Assembly: GCF_900002405.1 (NCBI RefSeq) | Contig: NZ_LK995542.1 | Coordinates: 148,449 to 212,448 of the forward strand | Source of the DNA: Actinomyces succiniciruminis | Lineage (GTDB): Bacteria > Actinomycetota > Actinomycetes > Actinomycetales > Actinomycetaceae | Direction of reading: 5' to 3' | DNA: 64,000 bases | Part shown: positions 29,842 to 47,398 of the stretch, piece by piece | Numbering within the stretch: position 1 is the stretch's first letter | Layout of the letters: the number at the start of each line of letters is the position of its first letter | Made by a program: the position numbers and the translations under genes | The notes under the pieces: generated by a model | Seen by the model: the letters and a program-made list of their open reading frames with translations, nothing else | The model's database searches: none | Told to the model about the DNA's origin: nothing

Positions 29842-29875
29842 CCGAGGTCGGTAGATCTTACACACCGAGGTCGGT
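29842..29875. repeat. 23-bp-period repeat, two units (third locus)
   Basis: CCGAGGTCGGT occurs at 29842-29852 and 29865-29875, separated by AGATCTTACACA, so the period is 23 bp. The sequence is nearly the same as the units at 41267-41346 and 42837-42893. It starts 18 bp after the ilvA stop. Confidence 0.8.
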
Positions 29876-29981
29876 TGCACCCTCAACGGTCTCTTCGCGT
29901 TTAGGAGCTCTTCCGGTTTGTGGGTGTGGTGTCCACGGGCCGGTCGGGAGCCTGAGCCGGGCGTGTAAGTGGACTGGGGGC

Positions 29982-30109
29982 TCTGCTACGCCGGTTGGGC
30001 GTTAACAACGCTACTTAACGCTCTGCTGTATACCTCGGAGCCCTTCAGTAAACCGTTAACAGGCGTTATTAACCCCGAAGTGGCGTTGGAGACCGGGAAG
30101 TGGCGTAGC
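29982..30109 (-). repeat. Intergenic hairpin element, copy 2
   Basis: This is the reverse complement of 2567-2693 with about 85% identity. It keeps both halves of the internal inverted repeat (GTTAACAACGCTACTTAACG at 30001-30020; CGTTAACAGGCGTTATTAAC at 30055-30074) and the central GTATAC. It lies inside element B, so the hairpin is probably part of that element family. Confidence 0.8.
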
Positions 30110-30299
30110 AGATGACCCCCGCTCCCAGACGCCGGGGTCGCCGGCAGACAAGTCCGGCCTGGTGAACCGGCAGGGTCACCGGTTTCCTCACCCGGCGACA
30201 CGTCGGCCGCCACATCCACAAGCACGAGGAGCCGGTCTGGATGGCCTGGTGGGGTTGTTCAAGGACACGGCCCGGCCCTCTAGGACGCCTCCCGGGAGA

Positions 30300-30345
30300 G
30301 CATCCTCGGCGGCCCGACGACGACTCCGCCGACCCGAGCACGACC
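30300..30345. repeat. Short degenerate 20-bp-period array
   Basis: GCATCC (30300), ACGACT (30320) and ACGACC (30340) follow one another at 20-bp steps, with CCGAGCACGACC as the best unit. This matches the period and core of the array at 6394-6610. It lies inside element B near its right end, as the longer array does in element A. Confidence 0.5.
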
Positions 30346-30590
30346 GCACCGCACCAACCACCACCCCCACACCACAGACCCGGCCGGAACCCACACCCGC
30401 AAACCGGAAGAGCCTGTTTAGGGTTGTGACTGGCGGCGTGTTCTGGCCGGCCCCGCAACGGCCTCCTCATGCCCGAACGCCGCCCTCCCACACCCGAGGA
30501 CAGCCTCCGCATTGTCCTTTCGACCCGCCGCACCCTCAAACACGAAGACCCATAAACATCGCCACATTAAGAGCAATTCAATAGCACACC

Positions 30591-46899: not shown

Positions 46900-47398
46900 G
46901 GCGTTTCCAGTTTGTGGGTGTGGTGGTGGATTCTGGTGTCGTGGGGTGCCGAACTGTCAACCTGCGGGCATGCCGGCTCGACGTCGCCCGCTGAACCGTG
47001 AGACGGCCCCGCAGGCTGTCCGCCTACGGGGTGTGCCGGCTGCAACCGGCAGCCGGCCTGCCGTTGGCGCACATGCCACTGTGCGGTGGTGGCCCGAAAT
47101 GTCACCAACCGGGACAAACGAGCCTCAACACCTACCAGGGGCATCCGGCACCCGCATGATTCCAACGTTTCCTTCACGGCCGCCGACGCCGCCGGACCCG
47201 TTTGTCCCGAATCATGACAATCACCCCTCCTAGAGACTCCCGGTGCACGGGCCACCCCGAAGGGACAGGCGAGCCGACGCTCCCGACCCACCGCTACTTG
47301 CCGTGCGCACACCCCGCCCACCCGTCACACCCACCAGACGGTCCACCTCCACCAGACGCCCGCCACCCGCCCCGCCACACGCGCAAACGGGAAACGCC
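46900..47398. mobile_element. Miniature transposon-like element C with near-duplication
   Basis: The ends 46900-46928 (GGCGTTTCCAGTTTGTGG plus GTGTGGTGGTG) and 47370-47398 (minus strand GGCGTTTCCCGTTTGCGC plus GTGTGGCGGGG) match at 24 of 29. Outside them lie CGATAACT (46892-46899) and CGACAACT (47399-47406), an 8-bp direct repeat with one mismatch. The 499-bp interior has no supported gene but contains the inverted repeat at 47100-47219. Confidence 0.65.
47100..47219. repeat. Internal inverted repeat of element C
   Basis: TGTCACCAACCGGGACAAACG (47100-47120) pairs with 47199-47219 at 17 of 21 positions, including an exact 11-bp core CGGGACAAACG/CGTTTGTCCCG, across 78 nt. It could form a long-range hairpin or be an older nested element. 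Confidence 0.65.

Follow-up and report, generated by a model that had tools for sequence, protein, structure and literature searches.

Between the threonine dehydratase gene and a downstream small ORF and ABC transporter genes, the 64,000-nucleotide stretch of Actinomyces succiniciruminis DNA analysed here (the window) contains a 509-bp segment, M2, set into the remains of a second element, M1. ORFs overlap M2 mechanically and, judged on these ORFs, nothing points to a gene. The features of the site are:

29881-29888, no strand: probable left target duplication of M1, CCTCAACG (CCTAAACA in genome G056), deduced from orthologous flanks
29889-29905, plus strand: left fragment of M1, interrupted by M2; its junction with the sequence from 30423 on recreates GGTCTCTTCGCGTTTAGGGTTGTG, intact in G056
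29898-29905, no strand: left copy of the 8-bp target duplication of M2, CGTTTAGG, 7/8 identical to the right copy
29906-30414, no strand: M2, a non-autonomous ISL3-type element of 509 bp (IS-like ends, genomic copies, empty site in G056)
29906-29934, plus strand: left terminal inverted repeat of M2, AGCTCTTCCGGTTTGTGGGTGTGGTGTCC, with its tip changed from G to A; 24/25 identical to an IS end
29981-30093, no strand: hairpin module, an imperfect palindrome of ~113 bp that is one copy of an independently dispersed repeat (matches on both strands, sharp borders, many copies)
30094-30113, minus strand: additional 20-bp unit of the palindrome arm, CGGGAAGTGGCGTAGCAGAT (period-20 units stand beside other copies; inverted arm at 30078-30112)
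30386-30414, minus strand: right terminal inverted repeat of M2, GGCTCTTCCGGTTTGCGGGTGTGGGTTCC; 28-nt arms, 89% complementary to the left
30415-30422, no strand: right copy of the 8-bp target duplication of M2, TGTTTAGG
30423-30550, plus strand: remainder of M1, with its right end GGTCTTCGTGTTTGAGGGTG on the minus strand
30551-30558, no strand: probable right target duplication of M1, CATAAACA (TCTAAACA in G051, TCTTAACA in G014), placed to within +/-1 nt

Borders, ends and target duplication of M2

An earlier note on this DNA had described a miniature inverted-repeat transposable element (MITE) of 511 bp with an exact 6-bp target duplication. Our recount bears out its observations: the two GTTTAG copies (29899-29904 and 30416-30421) enclose 511 bp and abut inverted ends with 25 matches in 30 positions. 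The flanks remain identical beyond this motif, as far as GTTTAGG, and once the ISL3 tip GGCTCTTC is set as the end of the element, M2 spans 29906-30414 (509 bp), with inverted ends of ~28 bp (GGCTCTTCCGGTTTG) and flanks CGTTTAGG/TGTTTAGG that are alike at 7 of 8 positions. A repeat search of the window returned arms at 29907-29934 and 30386-30413 (28 nt, 89%). This is the sole inverted pair in the window with at least 25/28 matches at a spacing of 250-800 bp, and six first-order Markov resamples of the window yielded zero such pairs. Since the duplication is imperfect (7/8) and the left tip has AGCTC in place of GGCTC, this copy by itself is insufficient to prove the family to which it belongs.

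Assignment to the ISL3 family

The tip GGCTCTTCC was the first pointer to ISL3. Among the checks proposed in the earlier note was a search for a transposase whose ends match those of the element. When the window's genome (3.33 Mb, 90 contigs) was scanned with PF01610 (DDE_Tnp_ISL3), a single copy came up, at C80:73162-73866 with 176.8 bits. It belongs to an ISL3-family IS of 1448 bp (G000:C80:73038-74485, G000 being the window's genome) that has the ends GGCTCTTCCGGTTTA / GGCTCTTCCGGTTTG and is flanked on both sides by an exact 8-bp GCATACAT. The terminal 25 nt of M2 are 96% identical (24/25) to the right end of this IS. Two non-coding relatives in the same genome, of 818 bp and 667 bp, also have exact 8-bp duplications (CGTAAACG and ACTTTTCC, respectively). 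Because the same genome contains both an IS and non-coding relatives with such ends and with exact 8-bp duplications, we assign M2 to the ISL3-family MITEs. Judged from sequence, M2 is almost certainly a miniature non-coding ISL3-family element with an 8-bp duplication, nested in an older ISL3-type MITE. The MITE identity proposed in the earlier note is thus supported: the ends and the duplication bound a stretch with no gene, further copies exist in the genome, a transposase has ends of the same kind, and the site is empty in a relative. The length of M2, 509 bp, is above the usual MITE size range and counts against this explanation.

We considered whether M2 belongs to some other family of transposons, one that really duplicates 6 bp of its target, as the exact abutment of GTTTAG on the 511-bp reading would suggest. 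This is very improbable, given that the identity runs on to GTTTAGG, that with the ISL3 tip as the border the IS and two related elements have exact 8-bp duplications, and that the end sequence of M2 is that of an ISL3 element; no copies with exact 6-bp and not 8-bp repeats were found. The 6-bp duplication was replaced by one of 8 bp after alignment of the IS and the sister elements, so that the flank identity reported earlier stands and its length does not: the duplication is 8 bp (7/8 kept), as is typical of ISL3.

ISL3 relatives in named actinobacterial contigs carry GGCTCTTC/GGCTCATC at their ends and are flanked by 8-bp duplications; under strict automatic pairing, 9 of 26 pairs agreed at 7/8 positions or more. 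Among named genomes, Actinomyces gerencseriae supplied the closest transposase match (62%). Among published elements, the ISL3 member ISArsp7 of Arthrobacter has the ends GGCTCTTCGCGGTTGG and CCTTTGCC and 8-bp repeats (PMC6305408 Table 3), and ISPpu12a, also ISL3, has a similar kind of end and 8-bp repeats (PMC4133298). The M2 family shares with ISs such as ISArsp7 (PMC6305408) the GGCTCTTC tip followed by a G-rich stretch and the 8-bp duplication, and the C80 IS shares with them an autonomous copy of ~1450 bp with a DDE_Tnp_ISL3 transposase. M2, in contrast, is without a transposase, is 509 bp long and has only its ends in common with the IS. A gene-less core between the ends of an autonomous transposon, a mosaic interior and presumed mobilisation in trans are also features of the TIMEs, mosaic miniature elements derived from Tn3 (PMC4133298); these, however, have Tn3 ends, 5-6-bp duplications and mostly a single copy, whereas M2 has ISL3 ends, an 8-bp duplication and many copies.

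Copies of the family in the genome

The earlier note had also proposed a genome search for the ends. With one mismatch at most allowed, the genome contains the end motif CTCTTCCGGTTTG 38 times, versus 4 for a reversed control, so further copies are present. Copies related to M2 are diverged and mosaic: its right half recurs at 90% identity in an 854-bp element at L002, its left half and the module recur elsewhere, and relatives with M2-type ends span 289-818 bp. Two other loci with related ends, as had been noted, exist in the window. One, at 46900-47398, is a second ISL3-like non-coding element of 499 bp with ends GGCGTTTCCAGTTTG / GGCGTTTCCCGTTTG and flanks CGATAACT / CGACAACT (7/8); the other, at 2725-2739, is a single ISL3-type end, GGTTCTTCCGGTTTG, beside a palindrome copy at 2582-2694, and no partner end was seen. 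Plasmid records searched at 'distant' sensitivity contained nothing similar.

These copies bear on a second alternative, namely that M2 is a decayed autonomous ISL3 IS whose transposase gene was removed by an internal deletion. The terminal 22-25 bp that M2 and the C80 IS have in common would fit such an origin, as would the recurrence of the right half of M2 in longer elements, including the one of 854 bp. We nevertheless consider it unlikely, as the interior of M2 has no significant match to the 1448-bp IS of the same genome (a comparison with that one IS), and there are relatives with the same ends at sizes of 289-818 bp.

Separately, the left flank of L009 and window positions 47100-47170 have a segment in common (CGGGACAAACGAGCC...CACCCGCATGATTCCAACGTTTC), which hints at a further repeat family.

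A nested insertion and its empty site

When the flanks of M2 are joined with one copy of the duplication, they read GGTCTCTTCGCGTTTAGGGTTGTG, an ISL3-type end, whose partner end GGTCTTCGTGTTTGAGGGTG lies on the minus strand at 30550. Since the joined flanks restore such an end and its partner is present, M2 was inserted into a terminal repeat of the older MITE M1. Empty sites in relatives were among the checks suggested in the earlier note, and one was found in G056, where the M1 end is uninterrupted. The joined flanks of the window align across the G056 junction with a score of 106, the maximum in 300 shuffles of the right half being 86. In G014 the element is at the same place and in the same orientation, 92% identical over its length; G051 has it at the same site and orientation with a further insertion inside. 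G053 and G012 have kept the neighbouring genes and are without M1 and without M2.

The sequences CATAAACA, TCTAAACA and TCTTAACA on the right, together with CCTAAACA on the left, look like the 8-bp duplication of M1 itself. Both G014 and G051 are without the part of M1 between the two right ends, a loss that recombination between these two similar ends would explain. Downstream of the threonine dehydratase gene we also observe short tandem units such as CCGAGGTCGGTAGATCTTACGTA, whose number varies between species, with two in the window and about seven in G051 (positions: window 29845-29880; L181 ~1930-2095; L254 1101-1240).

Age and activity

The suggestion in the earlier note that the family is active is unsupported for M2: its site is common to G014 and G051, its copies are diverged and mosaic, and the one ISL3 transposase found in the genome is frameshifted. 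Being common to three species, diverged, and mutated in both tip and duplication, the M2 insertion is not recent. The sole ISL3 transposase found in the draft genome (L021:1351-2739) is frameshifted near its C-terminus, after NGPTEAVN; this C80 protein is 87% identical over 410 residues to a 466-aa G005 transposase, after which its reading frame changes. The frameshift weighs against an active helper in the present genome; as repeats are often lost in draft assemblies, another ISL3 transposase copy may be missing from this one. G005 has ten ISL3 transposase copies with an equal score of 201.4 bits and an open frame of 466 aa, and 5 of 6 examined have exact 8-bp duplications. These identical-scoring open copies and exact duplications argue that ISL3 elements of the G005 type have been active in the genus.

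A dispersed palindromic repeat inside M2

Window positions 29981-30093 form a near-symmetrical imperfect palindrome of ~113 bp with 20-bp units around a hairpin. The hairpin module reported earlier in M2 is thus present, and it is not peculiar to the MITE: it is a dispersed repeat in its own right, found by itself at many sites. The window's genome has 47 matches with both strands counted. The borders are sharp, from (G)TCTACTACGCC to GGCGTAGTAGAC, and the flanks of separate copies, notably of those in G005 and G012, are unrelated to one another. We scored a covariance model in 49 genomes of the genus, in which each place matches both strands: nine genomes have 55-77 strand-matches (with the best 77 candidates scored), each of four further genomes has two strand-matches (one copy), and no palindrome was found in 36 of the 49. 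Among 297 genomes of the order, with the best 12 candidates taken for each, the palindrome was found in the window's genome alone.

Copies vary in the number of their units. In the G005 arrays the arms consist of 20-bp units in tandem around the centre CTGAAGG...CCTTCAG: one arm has one to three of them, the opposite arm two to seven in inverted orientation. Tandem Repeats Finder reports a period of 20 for these arrays. Large arrays of such units, in blocks of ~325 bp, occur in G005 at L271:6961-8143 and L270:6900-7440. We looked in G005, by way of single ends, for an autonomous element bounded by the ends of the palindrome itself, and no such transposon was seen. Single end matches mean little there, since the pattern (66+46) is nearly as common in the reversed control (37+28); paired or clustered matches are palindrome modules and arrays. 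Empty sites for the palindrome alone were sought at three loci, of which one has the module in four species, and the copy at pyrE lies within a larger insertion; no target duplication belonging to the palindrome was found. Directly upstream of pyrE (L016, L250, L238, L243, L236, L239, L235), nearly all the species compared differ in the repeats or insertions they carry.

A total of 34 copies align nearly without gaps to a consensus of 25 pairs with 94% of cells paired, and the pairing drops to 27-50% when the alignment is slid. Changes on both sides were observed in 50 cells versus 21 in column shuffles, which ignore relatedness. Could the palindrome then be what matters functionally, as a regulatory RNA or protein-binding site under selection, with the MITE a mere carrier? 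The high pairing, its loss on sliding and the excess of double-sided changes are all compatible with this, as is one intergenic site at which the palindrome is kept in G000, G014 and G051 and is present in a strongly diverged form in G056. The paired changes do not prove selection, however, because relatedness, which the shuffles leave in, and arm-to-arm correction could contribute to them, the latter yielding paired changes in the absence of selection. The match on both strands and the varying unit number equally fit a DNA palindrome or a mobile repeat, and Rfam gave no match for the window (gathering threshold) or for M2 (E up to 1). A selected function consequently seems to us possible and rather doubtful. 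An integron attC site was dropped by eye, as GTTAACA does not fit GTTRRRY.

Discussion

With the ends, target duplication, family copies, IS with the same ends, empty site and nested order shown at the level of sequence comparison, a layered history can be proposed. An ISL3 transposase acting in trans would most likely have recognised the ~25-bp terminal repeats GGCTCTTCCGGTTTGNGGGTGTGG and moved M2, whose insertion would have duplicated 8 bp of an A+T-rich target, CGTTTAGG. The target was the left terminal repeat of M1, an older ISL3-type MITE that was already resident, and the insertion predates the split of the three species G000, G014 and G051. Later decay has altered one base of the duplication and one of the tip, and the right part of M1 is absent in G014 and G051. 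The core of M2 is not IS-derived; it is a mosaic that includes a copy of the independent palindromic repeat, carried as cargo.

With its many dispersed copies, sharp borders and unrelated flanks, the palindrome resembles, by analogy, BOX/ERIC-type dispersed repeats. The ERIC sequences of enterobacteria are imperfect palindromes of roughly 110-130 bp that are dispersed intergenically. By description, our repeat is like ERIC in size, imperfect symmetry and intergenic dispersal, and it differs in host group and presumably in sequence. We know of no counterpart of the 20-bp unit architecture. BOX elements of Streptococcus pneumoniae have a variable number of boxB (PMC3049150) and, like the palindrome, are foldable intergenic repeats of one species group with two outer parts and variable short tandem units. 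The palindrome differs from BOX in that its 20-bp units flank a central hairpin in inverted arrangement, the likeness being one of architecture. The repeat family is apparently not described in the literature searched. We give an even chance to the reading that it is an undescribed family built of the 20-bp unit TCTACTACGCC[AG][GC]TTCGGCC, in variable number on one side of the hairpin and inverted on the other, that a non-ISL3 mobiliser has carried to tens of positions per genome within one species group, its pairing being kept while the sequence diverged.

As a MITE, M2 is ordinary, a further example of a familiar type. Its site offers a clean layered history, consisting of M1, M2 in the M1 end, partial loss in two sister species and an empty site. 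The palindrome is the more novel part and is worth following: its family lends itself to typing, to tracing across the genus and to a search for whatever mobilises it or for influences on adjacent genes.
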